Origin: Phaffia rhodozyma
Lineage: Eukaryota; Basidiomycota; Tremellomycetes; Cystofilobasidiales; Mrakiaceae
Assembly: GCA_014706385.1 (NCBI GenBank)
Contig: JACGZH010000001.1
Coordinates: 62,001 to 126,000, forward strand
DNA: 64,000 bases
Reading direction: 5' to 3'
The first letter of the stretch is position 1, and every line of letters starts with the position of its first letter. Below are positions 20,295-44,100 of the stretch, in pieces. Position numbers and translations under genes: made by a program. Under the pieces are notes generated by a model, which worked only from the letters and a program-made list of their open reading frames with translations, was not told the DNA's origin and searched no databases.

Positions 20295-20500
20295 CTATTA
20301 CAAAGGCTAAGAAATACTCAGCGGATCCCCCGAGATTGTCCAAGAGATCGACGGATATACATTCAAGGATACTTCGTATATAAGGAAGCTCTATCCAAGT
20401 TGTAGATGACGGCTCAGTTACACATCTCAACAACACTCTCACCCATATCAACCTACTCATCTTGACCTACACCTCTCAACCAAATTTTTTCGCAACAAAT

Positions 20501-21382
20501 ATGAAGGTCTTTATCACTGGCGCTTCTGGTCGACTTGGCTCTAGAATTATCCCCCATCTCATCTCTCGTGGTCACACTGTTGCCGGCCTCGTCCGATCCA
20601 CCGAAAAAGCTAAGAAGATTGAGGCACTGGGTGCGACCGCATTGATTGGGACGACTGCCGACCAGGGACTTCTCAGAAAGGGCGCGAACGAGAATGACGC
20701 CGTGATTCACTGCGCAATGGACCACAAGGACGCTGATTTGGGCAGTCAGATGAAAGGAGAGCGCGAGGCTCTCGACTTCTTCGCCGACGTACTCGAAGGA
20801 TCTGGCAAGGTATTGATTTCGGCGAATGGTACAGTCGCTGTGCAGCCTGGATCAGACGAGCATTCCCAGAGTGCGCCTATCGGACCAAGAGCTGAGACAG
20901 AGAAGGCTGTCTTGGCGTACAAGGATCGAGGAATTTGATCCATCGTCGTCCGATTGGCAATGAATACCCACAGCCCGGACGAGATTCACATGTTTCACAC
21001 CTTCCTCCTCGGCATGGGCAGAAACGCAGGGTTCATTCCATATGTCGAGGGGCTCAACTGGTCGGCTTGCAACGCGGACGACGCCGCTCTTCTCTTTGTG
21101 CTCGCTCTTGAAACGGCCGAGCCCGGAACTATTGTCCATGCCGTTCAAGAATTCCCCCAACTGAAGGCCATTGCTCAGGTGCTTGGCGAGAAGACTAAGA
21201 TGGACACCAAGGCCATCACCAAAGAGCAGGCCAAGGACTTTGGCTTCTTCGGCATCCTCTTGCAGGCTCATCAAGACTTTAGTACTAGCTGGACTAAGAA
21301 AACATTCGGCTGGCAGCCTAAGGGTCAGCTCCTGCTCGACGAGATGAAGCACGCTGATGCTTCCTTCTTCAAGGCTGTATGA
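20501..21382 (+). pseudogene. NAD(P)-binding SDR/epimerase-like gene with in-frame TGA
   Basis: A single intronless frame of 294 codons, interrupted once by TGA at 20936-20938. The start is an atypical short-chain dehydrogenase: beta-alpha-beta motif KVFITGASGRLGSRIIPHL (GxxGxxG), then NDAVIHCAM. The second half (SIVVRLAMNTHSPDE onward to WTKKTFGWQPKG) continues in the same frame with good SDR character. The TGA stands where related proteins have Arg (DRG-x-R-S-VVRL), so a single C-to-T change of CGA would explain it. Downstream codons show no other damage, so the lesion is recent, a strain allele, an assembly error, or is read through. The substrate is unknown. Confidence 0.7.
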
Positions 21383-21959
21383 AGGAGTTTGGCTGACACT
21401 TTTATATATGATTGGTGTATACTTGTTGTGATATCGATGATCTCAAATATAACAAAACCTTCGAAAGGCACCAGAATACCTTGTCTGATATTCTTTTGAT
21501 TTTTATCAATGTGCGCAAAAATTACCACGTCAAGTGGGAATGAACAGCACATGAATAGGATCAGACACAAAGTCTGTGACTGAAAACAAAATATAAAGGC
21601 CGGATGGAAACAATCATTTCGAGGAAGAGACAAAACATTACTGGCAATACGATGACGACCTATGGCATTCATCAGTTTGACTAGGTCATATATGAAAGAG
21701 ACGCCTTCTCTAATCGCTTTGGTAGCGTTTGATTGCCTCGATAGCAGAGTTCTGACAGGTATCACTTCAGTTTGAACAGGATTTACGTCAGGCGACATGA
21801 TCAAACTCAAACCAAGAAGTTTTGATGTCTAGCATGCTTACCCAACGGTGTACACTTCCCCCATTCGCTGCATTGCGAGAACAATGACTGCATCGCATTC
21901 AACAAAAACAAAAAAAAGTGAGCGGTGCGGTGTCTTGCTTCAAAGTGAAGTTTACAACT
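21383..21959. other. intergenic region between convergent genes
   Basis: A+T-rich. The minus-strand open frame at 21325-21810 mostly overlaps the antisense of the SDR gene end and shows no family signal. The exact 3' end of the following minus-strand transcription factor gene is not fixed. Confidence 0.4.
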
Positions 21960-24900
21960 CTACGTACGCTCAGTGTCAATCGATACTGTCAATGCTTCTG
22001 TTACCGCGAAAATGCAATCAGAAGTGAAGGAAACATCAGCAAGAATGTTGTCGAGTGTATGAGATACCTGATTCTGTAAGAAAAGAGAGCTAGCTTAAGC
22101 AGACAGAGAAATATTGACAGACCTTCCTCATTTCCAAGCATCCTAAGACGTCTCACTTCCTCAAGCAAAATATGAGCTGCGTTTCGCCAAGAGACCTACA
22201 AAGTTATCGATAAAACCATATCATCCGGGCATCAGTTCATTCCATCATCTTAGATATCTTAAAAGAGGAGAGAGCTTTCTAGAATTTTGGAAAAAAACGA
22301 ACTAGCATAACGAAGCTGCAACGCCTGAAGTTCACATCTGAGATGACACGGATGAGCTTTACCATAGATCGAGCAGACGACACGGCTTTCGCGCGTGCAC
22401 TCGTATCAAACACCGCTCGTTGTCGATATACCAAAGCGAATGCACTGAGTGAAGACGTTTACAGAAGACATGAGTATGTCTCTATTCGACATGATTGACC
22501 AATCACAATGTACGATTTAAATACCTAAGGATTTCACAATGTAACAATACAACTTCAGAGTCGACACCCCAAGTGTCTCCCCATGAATCCCACGAGGATT
22601 TCATACCCAGACTGTCTCTCATCATAGGATCCAGAGTCCAGGGGGCATTCCCCCCCGAACTTTCTTCGCAGGGTCTGCCTGGTCAGATGGAAGTGACCGT
22701 ACGAATTTTAAAAGCGCGTCTTGCAACCGCAAAATCTCAGATGGTACAGGTTCAGTTATTGGGCCAGCAGAGCTGTCAGATTCGGTCGACAGATCCTCAG
22801 ACAACACCTCTTCCTGCGAAGAAGGACTGAATGAATCTGTTCGGTTCGACATTTGAGAAAGGTATTTATTACGAGTCGAAGGATGTATGAATTCATCCAA
22901 GAGTCGAGCTGCTTCGTTTAACAACAGGTTTCCGATAAACTGACATGATGCACTCCTAGTGTTTCAGCCCAATAGATCAGTCAGCAGATGCAAACTAGAA
23001 GGATGAGATGTGCAAAAATCGAAAAACATACAGGTCTCCAACGAGGGTGTGTTGGGAGTCATCAAACAAACCATACACCGCCGTTATAGGTCGACTGTTG
23101 ACAACCTCAATCTGAAGGAAACAAAGTGCATGGTCAATACGGAGCAGTGTCATATCCTGTCCATCATACGTGATCGACCTACGTGTTCATACTGTTCCAG
23201 CGGCAATGGGAAGGGTGTCTCAATCTCTGACCAGTGCATTGACTTCAAAAAGCAATTGATTTAATTAGATTTTTGATGTATCTCAGTCTTGGTCACAGGA
23301 TATTACCAAGAACTTACAGGGGTCCATCCAGCAGCCGTTGAATGACACCTCTCTAGACCCTGAATATATGTAAGATGACAAAGACAGCCCAGAAATAGTT
23401 TACGACGAATTGGTAATCTCTGGAATGATTCAACCATGCGCCTGGATGTGAAGAGTTGACTCACCCAAGCTTGCCAGAAAGCCCATATATACTCTCCGCA
23501 TTCGATTCCGTCCTTTGGGGGCCGAACCTGACGTTTGACTCTGGCCAGCATTGCTCTGAATGGATTAGGAGGGCCCAAACTGTGATTCTGGAATGAACTA
23601 GGACAGAATGGAAAACTAATGCTTTGAAGGCGAGCGAGAGCGCAAAGCCGCATTGCGATCTGTACAAGATAAAACATACATCTCGTCAACAATGGAGTAG
23701 GATTGAAAGGACGAGGCCATGTCAAATCATAGACACATCGAGAACGCAATGGAGATAGTCTTACTCCTCCTAGGACCCAAGCCGATCGGAATCTCGCTTT
23801 CGAATCTTGGTTCAAGTCCGAGATCGAATATCAGTATCAGATAACATGACCCGTGATTATGTGATTTCATCAGATATGCTTATAGAGAAAGAGCTAACAT
23901 GCTACAGTGCCCAGAACTGTCGCGGCACGGATCAGGTCAATCATCCGCTCGTCCTGATCATCGATTCCATCCTCAAGATGTTTCCTAGCTGTGTGATAAA
24001 ACAAACTTTGCGAAGCCTGAACAGATTCGTCTGGATAGAGCTGACTGGCAGAAATATACTATCTCCGTCAAACATACGAAATCAACATTGTGCTTTGAGT
24101 GAGTAAAACGATGTTGATGAACGAGAACCTCTTGAACCTTCGAAAATAGGGGAGTCATGGTATATGAGAGAACGGACCATAGCGAACAAGAAAGCAGGAT
24201 GTGGTCGTTCGTTCTTGACTGGATCTTTGAGCTTACTGATGAATCAGTAAATTGAGGTAAAACCACAATATTGTTCCAGAACTTGTTTTGTTAGCTCAGT
24301 CACTGATTAGAAGAACGGATTTTCTCATTGAATCCTTTCATAACGAGACATACCTCCAAAATCGTTCAACATGAATCATAACTCCCGATGTTTTCATCTG
24401 CTTAAAGAAAGCCCCAAGAAGAAGATCTCTAATTCTTATCGGAACATCCCCATGCTCTTGAATATATGTCTTCAAAGTAGCTGTACGATCTTCAGTCGAA
24501 GAAGTCACGAGTGGTACTGAGGGTGACTCTTGAGCCAATGATGAGGGCGAGTATTCATTCGGTTGCCCAATTGAAATCAGGAAAGGTTCTGATAAGGATT
24601 GATTCGAGTCGAGCTGCAAAGAAGAAAAGAAACCGAGCTGCATTGGAGCAAGGTCTCCCAGAGCCGCCGTTGACTTCGATACATTCTCTTGATCTAGTGA
24701 AGAAAAGTCGAACTCCCATGGCTCGAGTTCGCGCCTGATTGTATCTGTTTGATCGAGGAACTGGGTGGGGACATGCATGGGACTTGAGTTCGTCTCGGCA
24801 GAGGAGTTCGATGAAACGGTCGATTGAGTCACGCTATTGATTTGCATGGATGGTGGACCAACTGTGATATTATCAGCACTGGAGCTAGTGTTCCATAGCT

Positions 24901-25849
24901 CCTGGAACGCTTGGGTGAACGTCGCCTGCTGGTGCCGCCTAGAAAGTCGGCTGGGATGAGAGACCCTCGAAGGAGTGCTGGGCTTGGGATATTCAAGGAC
25001 AGGGTAGGGATATATGGCAGAGGACATCTTCCTCTGATCCGTGCTAGATAGAGAGAAACCAGCGGACTCATTGGATTCTGATAGGGATAAAATAGATTCT
25101 AGTCGAGCTGAATGACACAGTACAGGCGATATCTAAATCAAAACCTCAGCCACTCAGTACAGATAGTTCAGGAAAAACTAACAAATCTTATCCTCTAATA
25201 TTCTTCCTTCTCGACTCCTGCTGAGATGCGATATCATACATGCATATTTGGGAGCTCTGTGAGGTTCAATAACATTAGTGGTGTGTTGGCTGATGTTCAT
25301 GCTTTTATCAAAGCTATTTTTGAGAGTGATCTATAGATTCAAGCAAGGATTGCACGGCTCACTTTCTTGCACGTTCCACATATAGGCCTCTCACCCGTAC
25401 TGCACAAGAGATGTCAAGTCTGAACTGAAAGCATTGAAATGATGAGGAACAGGGCAAAACTCATACCATTTCTGATATGTAATTCCCACCGACGAAGGAA
25501 AGACAACACTGTCCCAGGTTATGCAACGTTGTAATGGTGTAGCGGGTCTGTTCAAAAATGAAGTCAACTTGCCATTTTCCTCTTTCTGTGAAAAGCAAGC
25601 CGGACAAAACATACTTGACATGTCAGATGGCTGATCAGGTATATTGTTTGAATTGTGATTCTTGAGAAAAGATATGAGTACCAACCTGCATGTTGAGCAG
25701 CTGTTTGTATTATCAGCATAAACCCAAAGATTGCCAATCATCACAGTGTTCAAATGAGAATGGCAACAAGACATAATTGAAACCATGCACGACACTCACG
25801 CCAAGCCACGTTTCAAATACTTGGGACCAGTAGTGGGCTCGGACATCAT
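21960..25849 (-). CDS. Zn2Cys6 transcription factor with zinc cluster split over six exons
   Basis: The first exons read 25849-25800, 25700-25686 (15 bp), 25585-25573 (13 bp), 25471-25467 (5 bp), 25399-25363, 25256-25240 (17 bp), then a long exon 25043-24354. Joined, they give ACSTCRKRKMKCTGERPICGT-CKKSSQIC, an exact Gal4-type C-x2-C-x6-C-x6-C-x2-C-x6-C cluster. The intron after 25573 begins GCAAGT and ends CAG (GC-AG class). The long exon encodes a Ser/Pro/Gln-rich linker. Further exons down to about 22 kb carry the fungal-specific regulatory domain: KLKDPVKNERPHPAFLFAM, QVRPPKDGIECGEYIWAFW, GLERCHSTAAGW and IETPFPLPLEQY. The last exons and stop near 21960 are approximate. Its 5' side faces the permease gene. 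Confidence 0.65.
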
Positions 25850-26429: not shown

Positions 26430-29026
26430 TCAAGCAGCAGTGGTGATGGCATCATCTTTATCACTTGCACCCACATAGGACTCATCTCGCTCGTCTCTAT
26501 AAATGGTGGTCCCACCTCCTAGCTCGGTTTGGTACTTGACCTCATTTGGTGTCAACAGATAGTATTTCCGACCCGTAGCGAACCAAGCCACTTGTACTAG
26601 ACTGACCAAACCAACAAAAACGACTGACGAGTAGTCTACCATCAGCAGACAGGGTTAAGAAAGAGAAGATTAATTCAACACGTCAGCTTCGAGACTAAGT
26701 ATGTTGCGAAAATATGACGTACTCATCTATTTGGCTTGCACAGGTAAACCATACGGAAAGACAAAAAAGATGCTTTGACATGCCATGTAGATCACGGTGA
26801 GGATATTAATTGACCACCCGACTCGGCCAAGACGGAACGGTCCTGACGTATGGTACTTTCGTCCGGAAATGAGAAGTGCGACGATACAGATACCTAGGGT
26901 TGTAACGATTCAGCTATCGAGATCATGATCACGGCGGTGGGAATCCACTCGTACCATAACATAGCCAGTTTAACAGTAAAACACAGTTGAGGAAAGAGTA
27001 GAGCGCTGCAGGACGAAAAAGGACATAGTCAGCTGCCCATCCATGCGAGTGCTGCGAGAAATAATGTTGATCAGGTCTCTTCACCGTAGGTTGAACCCAA
27101 GATAGTGCATGCCAAAGCTGCGCTGAGCCCTGAAGTTACCATCATTACACGTATGGGAACGTTCCAGCGAGGTGAAATGAGAGCGAAGCTGCATCAAAAA
27201 GATCGTCGGTCGAAATATTGTGCATCAGTCAATATGATCAAGTTTCGTTCAAATGAGGTGCAGCATACTATGTCTGTGTGAATAGGCCACCATCACGGGC
27301 TACGGTGAAGGCCGTTCGACTGGTGGAAAGAACCATGCCTGTTAAGTAAGAGGTGGATATGAGCATGTTAGTAGATTTCGACCAGCAAGAAAATCGACGT
27401 ACCGATCATGGCCAAGAAAGTGATGATAATGATCATTAGAGACATGCATACTGTCCCCGAAAACGACTGAGTGGCGTTATATACAAGTTGGATGTATGGT
27501 ACTCCGGTTGCGGTGCCCAGGATAGAGTCCATATCGACCACCGCGAAAAGAAGCGAGATGAGCAACACGAATGAACTACGATATTCAGAAAGGGCAAAAG
27601 TGATAAGTCGTCAAGTTTCCTTGAATCGATACAATAAAAGGTTCAAAGTGCTAACCTGAGGAATCCAATTACAACGGTTAACCACATGGCTGCTCAGATG
27701 GTAAGAGAAGCAAGTTCCGAAGTAAGAATCGATGGTGTATGAACTAACGTAAGTGCCACTTACTTCTCGGCACATCTCTCTCCGGATGCTCGCATTCCTC
27801 TGCGATATGCACAACTGCATCCGTACCTACAGCAGGCACAACATATGTCGGAATTCAATGATAGAAAAATCATGAGCGAGTTGTACCGATGAATAACTGA
27901 CTGCTCACCTCCAAACGCTGTTGAAACACCCGAAAGGCCAATCATGAAGGCCACAAAATCTCCTCCATTCATTGAGTCGTAACCGGTCAAATTGATGGAC
28001 TCAGTGAAAACAAACTTGGGAGTCTTAAGCGCATGGTTGAGGTGACGTGCACACACGATAGGTACAATTAGGTATGCTAAGAATGAGAAGAAGAAGAAAT
28101 ATAGCGAGACTATATCGATGATAGGCATGATAGCCATACAGAATATGTTGAACAGGGTAGCGGCCAAAATGGCCGCTTCGGCGATGAGGAACACTGTCAA
28201 ATAAGCATCACCAGGTTAGCATGAGATTGTAAAAGAGAATGTCAACAAACAATCGAACCTTTCCATTGCGTGATGACAAATGACGGGTCGTTCAACACCA
28301 CTAAGGTAAGAATCTGTTGACCTATCAGCACCCCGAAGCCCGCAAGAATGACACAGTACCCGATATAATTGAGATGACCGGTGCAATAAGACTGTGTGAA
28401 GAAAGAAAGAATCAATCACTGGAAGTACAAACCCAAATATCTCTCAACAGCCAAGTTTGCTTACGATAAAGCGACGATGCTTCGGCGAAGAAAAGTTATA
28501 TGCCCACTCCATTGGTCCTCGGGAAGAAGGGTACGCGGATGCCATTTCTCCCAAACTGAGTGCGATGAGCATAGCTCCTGCAGCAGCATAGATCAAACCC
28601 CAAACCATCAACACAGGACCTCCGCTGGTGACACATGTTGAAAGCTTCGTGAGAATCGTCGCGTATCTGTATAAGAGCTTCAGTCAGTATCGACCATGAA
28701 TGATTGGTGAACGTCTAGATGCGAAATATAAATACACGCATGTGACCTGGAAGCGGGACGGGTCACGAGAGATGCATATAGTAGGCACAGTATCAATATT
28801 AAAATCTTGAGGCTATAGTCAGATTCTGCTCACAATACAAGCGAGTCCACGAAGACCTGCAGTACCCTACAGATATCATGGCTCATGTTCAGTGAAACGT
28901 AAACCGGGTGAAGCAGAAGGCGGTACAACTGACGAAGTTCCTGCGTTCTAGCTCTCCTCCAGCGTCGCTAACAACCTCGACGGCTCTGACTGCGTATACT
29001 CCTGTTTTATTCTTGGGATCATCCAT
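26430..29026 (-). CDS. APC-superfamily amino acid/amine permease
   Basis: A gene with many introns, start ATG at 29026-29024 and stop at 26430. The cytosolic N-terminus is MDDPKNKTGVYAVRAVEVV, followed by about twelve hydrophobic segments. Recognisable family pieces in order: SGGPVLMVWGLIYAAAGAML, LGEMASAYPSSRGPMEWAY, a conserved Gly-rich segment FMIGLSGVSTAFGG, GTDAVVHIAEECEHPERDVP, LSTSRTAFTVARDGGLF and GRKYHTSGPFRLGRVGW. GTDA..H..EE..... P.. and the SRT-FA-RDG element are typical of fungal GABA, choline and polyamine transporters. Substrate specificity cannot be read from sequence. It is transcribed divergently from the copper amine oxidase, which points to an amine or amine-derived compound. 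Exact exon borders in the 5' part are not fixed. Confidence 0.8.
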
Positions 29027-29375
29027 CTTTCACGGAATGGGTACGGTATGAAGTTTTGAGACAGAAGGTATATGTTTGGGAGTAGGAGAAAAAATCGTCG
29101 GAAAATGGAATTTGATAGAGCGTTATATGTCTGACATATCTTGACGAATGGCCCGGCTCTTTGATGATAAGAACTTTGAGGGGAAAGATGTTTGTGTAAG
29201 CTACGAAAGTCAATGATTGGATTCTTATCGTATAGATTTTGTGGATGGAACACGGAGAGCATGACACTTTCGTCTAGTTCTGAAGATTTCACCTTCACCA
29301 GCTGCTTCATCGTTATTTTGCTTCCCGCTCACCGGTCAATATGAACGAGTAAATCGATATCTTATCTCTAATTTC

Positions 29376-29438: not shown

Positions 29439-29590
29439 TGCCGGTTTATGATTAGTTCATTTAGATGATCGCCCGCTTGATTGCCCGCTTACTAGCGTCA
29501 GAAATTGGAAGTGATAGATAAAAAAACAACTTAACCAGGCGAGATTCCGTTCATCATTCTCCTCACTCAACCCATCACTTGCAAAGAAAC

Positions 29591-32500
29591 ATGTCCCCGA
29601 TAGTCTTGGATACTCTTGCCAAGGCTCTGCCTAGCACAGACTCATCTGCAGCTTCCCAGCTTCATCCTCTCGCTTCGCTCACTTCAGAAGAACTAGTCAA
29701 GGTCACCGATATTGTCAAAGCCTATAACCCGACTAAATCATGCTCGTTCCGAAGGGTATACCTAAAGGAACCGCCTAAAGCTCAGGTTTTACCTTACTTG
29801 GTTGCCTTCAACGCTGGAAATCCATTGCCGTCGCCTCCTCCTCGACGAGCGCAAGCGCTCCTCTACTTTCAAGGCGAGTTGCCCTTCATCGAGACGTTAG
29901 TGGACATCGGCGCTGGTAAAGTTATTGGACAAAGAGTTCTCGAGGGTATGGTAAGTAGTGCTTTCGTCTTATCACAGGAGAAGGTCCATAGTGTGTAATC
30001 CTTTGAGCCTGACGCTGTCAACGATTGTCTTGGTGGCTTCTTTAGCACGGTGGTGGTGATGATGAGGAAATGTTCAAAGTTGCGGCGTGAGTACCAGTGA
30101 TGTCAACATAACTATCCTTACACCGTTGCACAAAACTAATCCTCATCTATCCTCTGCGACCCAAAGTGGCGCTCTTGCGAGTCCAATGGTACAGGCTGAA
30201 TTGAAGAGGTTGCAAATTCCAGAGGGATGCGAGGTAGTCGCGGAGCCATGGCCTTGTAAGTTCTTACCTGTTGCGATCATTACTCTCTGTTGCTGATTCT
30301 TTCGTAATTCATCATTCTGATCATAGATGGAACTGATGATGAACCTCAGAGTCTTCGACTATTCGAAGTAAAATACTCTTGTCTAGCTTTGCCTTTGTCA
30401 GCACCATAAGCTAAACACTTTCATTGCAATTCATTACAGGTTTGGATGTTCCTCAATTCGAAAGAAACAAAACACCATCCTTCTGCCAACTTCTATGGCC
30501 ACCCTCTCGACTTTGGTAAGTCGTTTTTCTGCGACAATCTAGACCATTTACTTATCTATACTTGACTATTTGTTTATCTTGACAACGTGCAATCAGCTGC
30601 TGTTGTTGATGGCCGAGATTTTTCAGTAATCCGGATCGATCGTATGCCCACCACGGCAGAATTTTCTGCTTCGACCGATCCAACCAAGACATACGAGGTG
30701 CGCTTCATCAATATTTGTAGTGCTTGATCTGAAGGGTTTTTCATTCAATCTTGTCCAAACTTTACAGCATCATGCCGATTCTGAATATGCCCCTGAGTTG
30801 CTTCCTGGTGGTCTTCGTCAAGATTTAAAGCCGATTCATATCACTCAGCCCCAAGGAGTTAGCTTCACGATCGAGGGTGAGCGAGTTAGATGGCAGAAGT
30901 GGGATTTCACTCTCAACTTTGACTTGCGTGAGGGCATGATTCTCAGGGATGTGAAGTATGATGGCCGACCTATCTTCTATCGAGTCAGTACTAGTGAGAT
31001 GACAGTGCCTTATGGAGATCCGAGGTCGCCTGGTAAGTTTCGATCTGATCTGCTGATAAGGTTAAGACCGTTTGCTCACATCTCAACACACGACCAACAG
31101 TCCACCGAAAGAGTGCCTACGACTTTGGTGAGGCCGGAGCTGGACAAATGGCAAACAACTTACAACTTGGTTGTGATTGCCTTGGTGTCATCCACTGTGA
31201 GTTTCAACATTGTAGAAAGAGTTGAGTCAGCTTATACCATACTGATCAACAAACGATTCACGGTCACAGATATCGATGGGCTTGCAGTCAAGCCCGATGG
31301 CTCTCCCCTTGTGTTGCCTAACACTATATGCGTACACGAGCAAGACGGAGGTAAATTTAGTTCAATTTCTAAAACTTCTTACATATCTCTTTCTGCAGTC
31401 ACTAATGGGCTTCCTGATATCTAGGTATTGGTTGGAAGCATACCAACGTACGAACTGGTCGGGCTGACGTAGCTCGATCCCGTGAGCTCGTTCTCCAGCT
31501 GATTCTGACTGTAGGAAACTACGAATATGCGTTGTACTGGATCTTCGACACGGCTGGAGTGCTTCATTGGGAAATTCGTGCAACTGGAATCATGTCTGTG
31601 ACCCCGATTGAAGCAGGAGTCGACGCAGCTAACACGATCAAATACGGTAGTGTTGTCGCACCAGGTGTTTTTGCACCGGGTAAGCCTTCCTAGTACTACA
31701 CCAAACAGCACATATAGAGATCTCAGCTGATTCCGGTTGTGTACATATCTCAGATCATCAACACATCTTCAATCTCCGAATCGATCCCGCCATCGATGGT
31801 TACGAATCTTCTACAGTCGTGTACGACGAGACCCACCCAATGGAGCGCAATGAGAAGAATCCTCACGGCGTTGGGTTCGAGACGCGCCAGACCAAGGTCA
31901 ACAGAGAGGGAGCATTTAACCTCGATTGGCAAACAAACCGAGTCGTGAAGATGATTAATCCTTCAAAGCTCAACAGGCACAGTGGCAAGCCAGTCGGTTA
32001 TAAGATTGTCGCACCGCCAACTCAGTTGGGGCTGGCTCACGAGACCAGTATGCATAACCAGCGAGGAGAGTTTGTCAACAATCATATCCATTACACCAAG
32101 CATGACGAGGAAGAATTATTTGCTGCTGGAGAGTAAGTCAATTTCGTTGGATCAAATTCCGATAACACGTTGTTTAGTGTAGGTACCAAAACACTTAAAA
32201 CTTGATCCTTCTGCTTGTCCTTACTTTCTCAACAGACACCCATGGCAATCTGTGGGAGGTCAAGGAGGATGCAGAACCTGGGCAGCTCGTCAGCGCGAAG
32301 TCAAGACTGGCGAGGGAGTCGTTTGGTTCACCCTTGGATTCACCCATGCAACCAAGCCTGAAGACTGGCCCGTCATGCCTGTCGAGACCTTCCGTATGCA
32401 TTTCAAGGTGCGCTGTCTCTTATCCAAGTCATCTATCGAGACTCAGTTGCATTCACAGTTATCTGATAATGTGATTCTTTTACCCTTCGTAGCCTGTTCA

Positions 32501-41164: not shown

Positions 41165-44100
41165 CTAAGCAACAGTCTTCATCCGGAACGCAGCTAGTTT
41201 AGACACCCCGTCATTCTTCACAGGTTCTAAGTTCTCTTTCTGCAGAGCGAAGTATGTTCGTGTAGGAGAAAACATAAGCATGTGTCAGATGAATTGTTAA
41301 AAGAAAGGAAAAGTACCTAGACGCGGCCAGATCAAAGAATATTACTTACAGCGGCCTCTTCAACGTCGTCCTCGTCCCCCAAATCTATCATCATCGGCTC
41401 CTCGTCATCGTTCTCCATTAGAGAATCGACTTGAGTTTCTTCTAAATCAAGTCCTTCGTTTCTCTGCGTCTCTGTTCCATCTTCGAACGACTCCTCTACG
41501 TCCGTCTCAAAACTTTGCCTTTGAGCGCGTCCCATCCCATCCGCCTTTTTATTGGAAACCGATTGCGGATCCAATTCTTCGTCATCTGATTCAACCGTTC
41601 TCAAGCTATCGTTCTTCTCAAGAGGCTTTCGTCCAGACTTTTTCTTGACAGGCTCTTGACCAGGAGGTAGACCGAATAGGGTAGTCTGCTTTGAACCTTT
41701 AACCGCTGTCGTTCCGGCAGTAGGTTTTTTGCCTCTATCTTTAGATTTGGAATCTTCAACCGATCTGGCATCGTCGATGCGATCAAAGAACGAGGTGCTT
41801 TTGCCCACAGTCACCGGCTTTCCAATATTCGACCGAGCAAAAGGATTGGAGGCAGCGGAGTTGGCATCTTTCTTGGCAAATGGGTTCTTCGGTGCCATCT
41901 TCAGAGGCGGCGCCATATCGCCTTCCCCATTTCCCCGCTTCCTGCGCTCTGGAGGAGCCGGGAAATCGTCGATCACCGTATCTCCCGTTCTCTTCCTCTT
42001 CAAGCCGTCCTCCAACTCTTCTTCGTCACCATGGCCTCGTTCATGGGATTCTGAGCCAACGTCTACCGATGATTCTGGAATGAATGACTCTTCTCTAGAT
42101 CCTTCATCTACCGCGTACGAGTCCACTGTCAGTCTCGATGAAGAGATTGAAACAGGCGTTGGGTCAGGTGTAGCAGCAAACGTCCGTTTGCCGCCTACAG
42201 GCCTCGGCGCAAAAGCCGGCACGGATTTGGTCGATGGTTTCGTCGTCTTGGGATGAACGGCGTTAGAAGTAACGTAATCAAATTCTGATCCAGGTTGGAC
42301 ATATTGACCCCCTCCATTGCCCCATCTACCGCCTTTACCAGCCCTTCGCTCCAGCTGATCACGCTCGTAAAGTTCGTCCTCCTTCAAGGATCGAAGTTCC
42401 GTAATTTTTTCCCGGAGACCCGGAAGGTGGTAGAATGCGGCGATCTGCACGGCAGAGTCGATTGATTTAGTAGAGTTGAGTAGACGAGCGGCGTCGAGTG
42501 CACGAGCAAGTTTGTCGGCTTTGCAGGCAGTTTGGATAAGTTGTAATAGAGATTTATCCTGGGCGATCTCAAGTCGGAAGACCTCGTCGGCAAAGTATGT
42601 CGACTGGCTTGCAATTTGAGCATCGCGGTAGAAGAGAGCTTCCATACGCTGTCGGACCACACTAGAATCAAAAAGAATGTGGCAGGTTAGACAACATTTT
42701 GTTGACTCCCAAATGACATTACTATCATCTTGCTTACCACTCTTCTAACTGGCCATGCTGATTTTCTCTGTTGAGGAGAGGGATGTTCATATCAAGATCC
42801 GAGATGAGAGGCCGAGGAAAGTAAGGTGAAGTTACTCGACCCTATGCGTAAGAACAAACTGCTTAGCTCTTGGAGAGTTCTGTTGATGGTATTGAGGGGT
42901 GGAAGATTAATCAAGTATGATCACAAACCTTGAGAATGACGGCCATAAACTTTCCATCTTGAACCCCCACAGCCCAGTAACTCTCATCCTTGCCCTCTTT
43001 TCGAGCCAATAAATTAGTGTCTAGAGCGGGCACCCATCGAGCTTGGTGAGGGCGGCGGAATCGATCAAGGACAGAGATGATACCCCGAGAATCATATATG
43101 AGGGGATTCTAAAGATAAAAGAACAAAGTTTCAGATTCGCCAAACAGGATTTAAAAAATTAGAAGGAATATTTATGGATCGACGTACTCCGACATCAGAG
43201 AATCCAATCCACTTCAGAGTAGTAGACTTAGGAAGAGGCAATCGACCTTCTTGGATTATATCGAAAGACTCAAGGTTTACTAAGGTAAACCGCAGGTTTT
43301 GGCAGCCTGATGATTATAATGCTCATTAGCAATATATTATGGTCAGAGTGCAGATCGACAAAGATGAACATACCATCAAGACTCGTTCCACCTTCTCGGT
43401 GAACAACCAGAAGTTCCTGTTGCCCGGCCGTCATCGAGACAACTTCCTCCCCCAGCATCCAAATATACCGTTGAACTCCACTACCAGAGAAAAATCGAAG
43501 ATAGCCCTTAGATGTGGCCGCAACGACCATGCCCGTTGTATCATCTTGCCTAGATGATTTGACATCACTGGATGAGCGGCCACCGACAGCAACAGCGACT
43601 ACGCGCTCTGATTTCGGAAGGTCATGAGTCCATTCAGAGGATGTTGATGACCATGTATCGAACAGTCTATAATGAAGTGTAGAAATCGGGTTGACAGAAT
43701 CCGGTGTGGAGGCGAATACTGCGCCCTTCTCGCCTGCAGTCAAGAACTCAGTTTCTGTTAATCAATACTCGGGAGCGCGTATAGCAGGAGAACGAAGAAA
43801 AGAACTCGAGACTAACCCAGAGCGGCCAGATCGTACTTGATGTGATCCTGGAAATGAAACCCTCTTCGACGGCTCGTGTCGTGAAACTCTACATTAACCA
43901 CATTATGGGTCTCTTGATCGGTGATATCAATGGCGCCAACCATATTGAAAGCTACAATCACCAAGACCATGTATATGATTAGCTCTGACCTTTGATAGGA
44001 AATCGAAACGAACTGCAAGCACAAACCTAAGTATCGCTTCTTGCCGCGTGAGGCAGTTGAACCAGGTTGGAACGCAGGTTGAGATTTAGCCACGCTGACT

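Follow-up and report, generated by a model that had tools for sequence, protein, structure and literature searches.

Can a DNA-binding domain be built from exons so short that one of them holds only 5 nucleotides (nt), and does the inclusion of such an exon act as a switch? This question is raised by a gene of the fungus Phaffia rhodozyma in a 64,000-nt stretch of contig JACGZH010000001.1 (positions 62,001 to 126,000), which is called the window below. A preliminary description had assembled a Gal4-type zinc cluster from six exons of this gene and had proposed that skipping the 5-nt exon could turn DNA binding off. In this study, sequence analysis confirmed the prediction that the micro-exons build a genuine Gal4-type Zn2Cys6 cluster, including a true 5-nt exon. 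We believe it very likely that Phaffia rhodozyma has a family of six paralogs that would code their DNA-binding domain in micro-exons, and that the window gene is a divergent, decaying or coil-skipping member. The preliminary interpretation as a whole is partly supported.

The zinc cluster of the window gene

The window gene lies on the minus strand and runs from 25849 to about 21710. Its cluster region is laid out as follows, with the cysteines (Cys) numbered in order.

25800..25849, minus strand: exon 1, 50 nt, from the start codon to ...KRGLA, donor GTGAGT; 50 nt in four of five paralogs and 53 nt in one
25686..25700, minus strand: exon 2, 15 nt, holding Cys1 and Cys2, donor GTTGGT; 15 nt in all five paralogs
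25573..25585, minus strand: exon 3, 13 nt, basic KRKM, with a GC donor directly after it; 13 nt in all five paralogs
25472..25572, minus strand: intron 3, 101 nt, GC-AG (GCAAGT...TATCAG); GT donor in all five paralogs
25467..25471, minus strand: exon 4, 5 nt, AAATG, coding Lys and the first two bases of the Cys3 codon
25363..25399, minus strand: exon 5, 37 nt, with the last Cys3 base, the loop, Cys4 and Cys5; 37 nt in all five paralogs
25240..25256, minus strand: exon 6 as given in the preliminary description, 17 nt, ending after Cys6 at CAT/gtatga, a boundary without conservation
25183..25256, minus strand: exon 6 in its paralog-homologous version, which includes LEDKI and ends at the donor gttagt; it exceeds its counterparts in the paralogs by one base

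At all six exons, the donors are GT or GC and the acceptors AG, and the joined exons (50+15+13+5+37+17 nt) encode MMSEPTTGPKYLKRGLACSTCRKRKMKCTGERPICGTCKKSSQIC. The Zn2Cys6 pattern is C-X2-C-X6-C-X5-12-C-X2-C-X6-8-C, and the window gene has this Gal4-type six-Cys pattern with a spacing of C-2-C-6-C-6-C-2-C-6-C. The cluster scored 40.1 bits against PF00172 (cut-off 21), with three read-through residues typed on to the query. The places, lengths and splice dinucleotides of the proposed exons therefore stood, as did the domain; what did not stand is the end of the 17-nt exon, which is common to no paralog. The claim that the Cys3 codon is itself split was borne out (TG/T, between exons 4 and 5). 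The intron after 25573 had been called GC-AG, and by sequence it belongs to this class, beginning with GCAAGT, a GC in an otherwise strong donor context, and ending with an AG acceptor (CAG).

When exon 4 alone is skipped, the joined bases read ATG TAC GGG TGA and the cluster is lost, as the preliminary description had said; such a form is open in none of the six genes.

A family of six paralogs

The scanned genome comprises 19.77 Mb in 15 contigs. Searches with the public proteins P0002-P0005 led to six loci, namely C1:84-88 kb (the window gene), C9:1337 kb, C2:2331 kb, C1:1468 kb, C12:46 kb and C2:2250 kb, with body identities of 40-55% among the family genes and of 40-46% for the five paralogs of the window gene. 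Exons of 15, 13, 5 and 37 nt lie inside the cluster in all six. Five of the genes have AAATG as their 5-nt exon; the sixth (L066) has AGATG, in which Arg replaces Lys and a basic residue is retained. This pattern indicates that the exon is old and coding. The joined N-termini of all six genes passed PF00172 with 37.1-45.3 bits. In the five paralogs, exon 6 continues in frame through C-x-[YF]-[DE] to LEDKI-like residues. Body exon lengths are mostly common to the five mapped genes.

The paralog exons were first proposed by eye from three-frame prints, and most were then matched by pattern; exon 2 of L064 and exon 6 of L065, which the pattern step left unmatched, were typed in. A threshold enumeration to which no lengths were supplied gave the same exon lengths in the window gene and four of five paralogs. 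A second start codon of L066 also fits. In a motif scan that covered 22 loci on both strands, five of the six family loci gave four-intron clusters, L008 a one-intron cluster and L001 and L003 contiguous clusters; nothing further was found.

In the explanation that we favour, domain exons of about 50, 15, 13, 5 and 37 nt, together with a sixth that continues into the coil segment, would have to be joined exactly by the spliceosome, the 5-nt exon included, to yield the cluster. All micro-exons of the intact genes would normally be included, and the proteins would presumably bind DNA as zinc clusters followed by a coiled coil. We take the micro-exons to be constitutive because their lengths, phases and residues are retained in genes that are only 40-55% identical, and constitutive inclusion is also favoured by the 5-nt exon being shared by all six genes.

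Among the matches listed, the first homolog search gave one distant match outside Phaffia, from Panus, and the family-profile search for homologs beyond Phaffia gave only P0005 and P0001. As for L066 (C2:2248400-2254500), no public protein was among the matches listed, and the acceptor of its 5-nt exon, AAAAAG, is unusual.

Chance assembly

Because very short exons allow many joins, the cluster might be an assembly of exon pieces unrelated to one another. Under strict splice signals, one six-Cys path was found in the real sequence and none in 150 shuffles, with the same outcome at two strict settings, although these signals were chosen only after the real sites had been seen. When any GT, GCAAGT or AG was allowed, the number of six-Cys paths rose to 14, and one of 40 shuffles had any. 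When both strands of the 64-kb window were scanned with weight matrices and only the Cys spacing was required (up to 5 introns of 55-170 nt, with score floors), the path of the window gene alone was recovered. The matrices were derived from 95 family introns, 25 of them from paralog N-termini and 14 from the body of the window gene, with the five cluster introns of this gene excluded. Without the Cys requirement, the window gene has 30 open paths, several of which outscore the cluster path (best 25.7 vs 20.7), so that splice scores alone do not pick the cluster path out.

In mononucleotide shuffles, a 5-nt exon coding Lys/Arg-Cys arose by chance between exons 3 and 5 at a rate of 0.0006-0.005 per gene. 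The exon lengths common to the five paralogs, which are the strongest support for the cluster, and the single path in the scored scan argue against chance assembly. We reject it and give it practically no weight. The preliminary description had likewise judged chance unlikely, and both the strict scan and the paralogs agree with it.

Exon 6 and the coil in the window gene

Up to the end of the LEDKI codon, exon 6 measures 73 nt in the window gene and 72 nt in all five paralogs. With all exons included, the cluster frame of the window gene therefore stops after CMYDIASQQESRRKNIRG. The coil LEDKISRLES is preserved in another frame and is present in P0001; it is in frame with the cluster in all five paralogs, but not in the window gene. 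Since the coil is out of frame, the family membership of the window gene rests on exon structure and body similarity. The features that follow the cluster are these:

25044..25239, minus strand: possible bypass intron, 196 nt (gtatga...tctag), which would skip the coil
24354..25043, minus strand: large linker exon as it would begin if the bypass is used; with the acceptor that is homologous to that of the paralogs, the start would be at 25107 instead
21710..24235, minus strand: body, made up of 14 further exons and including the fungal transcription factor domain; its protein is identical to P0001
22641..22659, minus strand: lost intron and second frame break, near 22650; the intron is present in four mapped paralogs

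The junction from CAT/gtatga to 25043 is the sole frame-keeping link that we found from Cys6 to the body, and it drops the coil. Two other ways of restoring the frame were rejected. A 19-nt intron after Cys6 (gtatga...ctcag) was ruled out because the 95 family introns span 67-161 nt; as for other single introns of at least 60 nt after Cys6, only the coil-skipping one keeps the frame above the score floors.

The window gene may thus produce a working factor without the coil, in which the 17-nt exon 6 is spliced to 25043. This path is the only one with a full cluster that reaches the body in the threshold enumeration, and its summed score of 11.2 is in line with the canonical paths in four paralogs, which score 8.5-13.2. 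However, the exon-6 boundary is not conserved, the 196-nt intron exceeds all 95 family introns, and a second bypass would be required near 22650. A LEDKI-skipping path also occurs in one of the four paralogs tested (L063, 5.7; L064 was left out), which means that such paths can come about by chance. We consider a coil-less factor possible but rather doubtful, and for this copy only.

The body and the second frame break

The body of P0001, a public Phaffia rhodozyma protein, maps to the window in 15 exons, and the total cost of 28 is accounted for by 14 introns at 2 each, so the mapping is without mismatch. P0001 is, judged from this identity, the same gene as the window gene, and its record probably stems from another assembly. 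The intron that the paralogs have between KV and [LR]GG is exactly lost in the window gene, and a frame break follows within 20 bases; for L066, the same intron is implied by a gap between tblastn matches. In the P0001 model, this second break is spanned by an intron with a 6th-percentile donor, and since P0001 needs this bridging intron, the break is probably in both assemblies. As for the first break, P0001 covers only the later part of that stretch. The second site lies among runs of G and C, and a sequencing error there was considered, as was programmed frameshifting at the window gene.

It is also conceivable that the window gene is dead or dying and that its cluster is a relic. This would concern this copy only and is compatible with the explanation that we favour for the family. 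Two frame breaks and a GC donor are found in one gene, and the compared paralogs have none of these at the same sites; full inclusion ends in an early stop, and the public model crosses the second break only by way of a poor donor. On the other hand, none of the six Cys codons has been lost, the five cluster introns retain their splice dinucleotides, the remaining body is open, and a bypass path exists. We regard a dying copy as a serious possibility, although we stop short of calling it probable in itself.

The window gene is a divergent member of the family, with an intact cluster, a GC donor, a linker out of frame and a second frame break downstream. Judged from its sequence, it is probably either in decay or dependent on bypass splicing that leaves out its coil.

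Several observations weigh against our explanation. The enumeration for L064 ranked another path above the conserved one (32.8 vs 31.5). L063 was recovered by neither the threshold enumeration nor the motif scan, since GTAATG, the fifth donor of this gene, has a score of 0.0 and falls under the floor. The motif scan is strict: of the eight loci with a PF00172 match (L001-L008), it found only three. The body of the window gene is otherwise open when the bridging intron of P0001 is used, and it is identical in the second record, unlike an old pseudogene. In a tree in which P0001 represented the window gene and L066 was pieced, the window body had the longest end branch (0.96), closely followed by P0005 (0.84), and no branch was starred; the window gene and P0005 each differ at 28 of the 143 sites that are invariant in the other family members. 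With P0005 so close, branch length and site differences do not mark the window gene as a pseudogene.

Constitutive or regulated inclusion

Regulation of a micro-exon inside a GAL4-like domain has been reported in one case. According to the available part of the source, the micro-exon of Trichoderma virens Xlr2 acts as a glucose-dependent switch; it is 20 nt long, codes two Cys and is conserved across the genus, and its inclusion was shown by RNA sequencing (RNA-seq) (PMC11121469). Xlr2 and the Phaffia genes, as far as that part of the source goes, are alike in having a micro-exon inside the DNA-binding domain, and they differ in that Xlr2 has one exon backed by RNA-seq, whereas Phaffia has several, down to 5 nt, predicted from the genes. 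By analogy, this published precedent makes the idea of an on/off switch reasonable. Regulated inclusion of the 5-nt (or 13-nt) exon would then yield forms with and without DNA binding. Trichoderma belongs to another fungal phylum than Phaffia.

At the end of exon 3, the window gene has its GC donor where all five paralogs have GT, and this donor lies at the 11th percentile of the family donors, which would suit a switch. When exons 3+4 or 4+5 are skipped in pairs, the frame remains open in all five intact paralogs. The window gene has four skip forms that meet the coil in frame; each lacks exon 3, and none has a full cluster. However, a GC donor at this place is found in just one of the six genes, and the open frame after paired skips is a consequence of exon arithmetic. 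Because skipping exon 4 alone never leaves an open form, a switch would need message decay or paired skipping. We consider a switch of the Xlr2 kind unlikely, and constitutive inclusion is the simpler explanation.

A bolder proposal is a splicing gate for the whole family, in which a micro-exon recognition factor would set DNA binding for six genes at once, and the window copy would make separate products, namely a 62-residue cluster-only peptide if all exons are included and, if the exon with the GC donor is left out, a body protein that has no cluster. This we regard as very unlikely.

As a separate observation, the intron after the seventh mapped body exon of L065 is the second GC-AG intron of the family and likewise starts with GCAAGT; among the 95 other family introns, the number of GC donors (GCAAGT) is one.

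Neighbouring genes

An amino-acid permease gene (26450-29040, minus strand; PF13520 in the pieced protein) adjoins the factor gene, and exons of a copper amine oxidase (29522-31421, plus strand; PF02727 and PF01179) lie beside it. These neighbours suggest, and no more than suggest, a role of the factor in the use of amines or amino acids. Elsewhere in the window, an NmrA-like/NAD-binding exon lies at 20384-20935 (plus strand), and an exon with the C-terminal domain of Ctf4, the DNA polymerase alpha-binding protein, at 41335-42744 (minus strand).

Comparison with known systems

The best solved-structure match of the L066 cluster with its coil was Gal4/Lac9 (PDB 1d66, 1cld; E 2.3e-8). Gal4/Lac9 and the Phaffia family have in common six Cys, a basic loop and a helix after it; the window copy is unlike them in that its coil is out of frame. 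To our knowledge, the Gal4 gene has no comparable exon structure.

In the part of the genome paper available, Phaffia and Cystofilobasidiales are described as having 7.5 introns per gene, a mean intron of 111 nt and a mean exon of 199 nt (PMC5103461). Against this mean, a 5-nt exon is extreme. The word 'microexon' is absent from that paper. No literature combining 'Phaffia rhodozyma' with 'microexon' was found in the collection searched, where the older name Xanthophyllomyces was not paired with that word. In the portions of two Cryptococcus papers looked at, 'microexon' has a single occurrence per paper, for a read-mapper setting.

Annotation of the family

None of the five public models passed PF00172: P0002 and P0004 scored about 17 bits, and the other three had no match at E 0.01. 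Against PF04082 (cut-off 23), P0001 (27.5 bits), P0004 (24.9) and P0005 (34) passed, and P0002 (17.9) and P0003 (20.6) remained below. The PF04082 domain is common among Gal4-type factors, although not every member has it. In genome scans made exon by exon at E 0.001, in which only the best candidates were scored, the six family loci were absent among the 19 PF00172 and 17 PF04082 matches listed.

Similar cases have been reported in the CeGAL survey, which in the part of the paper available finds that more than 90% of about 17,000 fungal factors without a DNA-binding domain are annotation errors, and which describes one Rhizopus factor in which a short exon encodes two amino acids (PMC10141177). 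As that part describes them, its 'MHD-only' cases resemble the Phaffia family in that the DNA-binding domain seems absent because exons were missed; CeGAL is an automatic re-prediction survey, whereas the Phaffia case is a family-wide architecture of five introns.

In this way, micro-exons let the DNA-binding domains of a whole transcription-factor family escape standard annotation. The six genes are natural replicates for the study of 5-nt exon splicing in a fungus, and existing RNA-seq of CBS 6938, named in the available part of PMC5103461, makes the switch idea testable.
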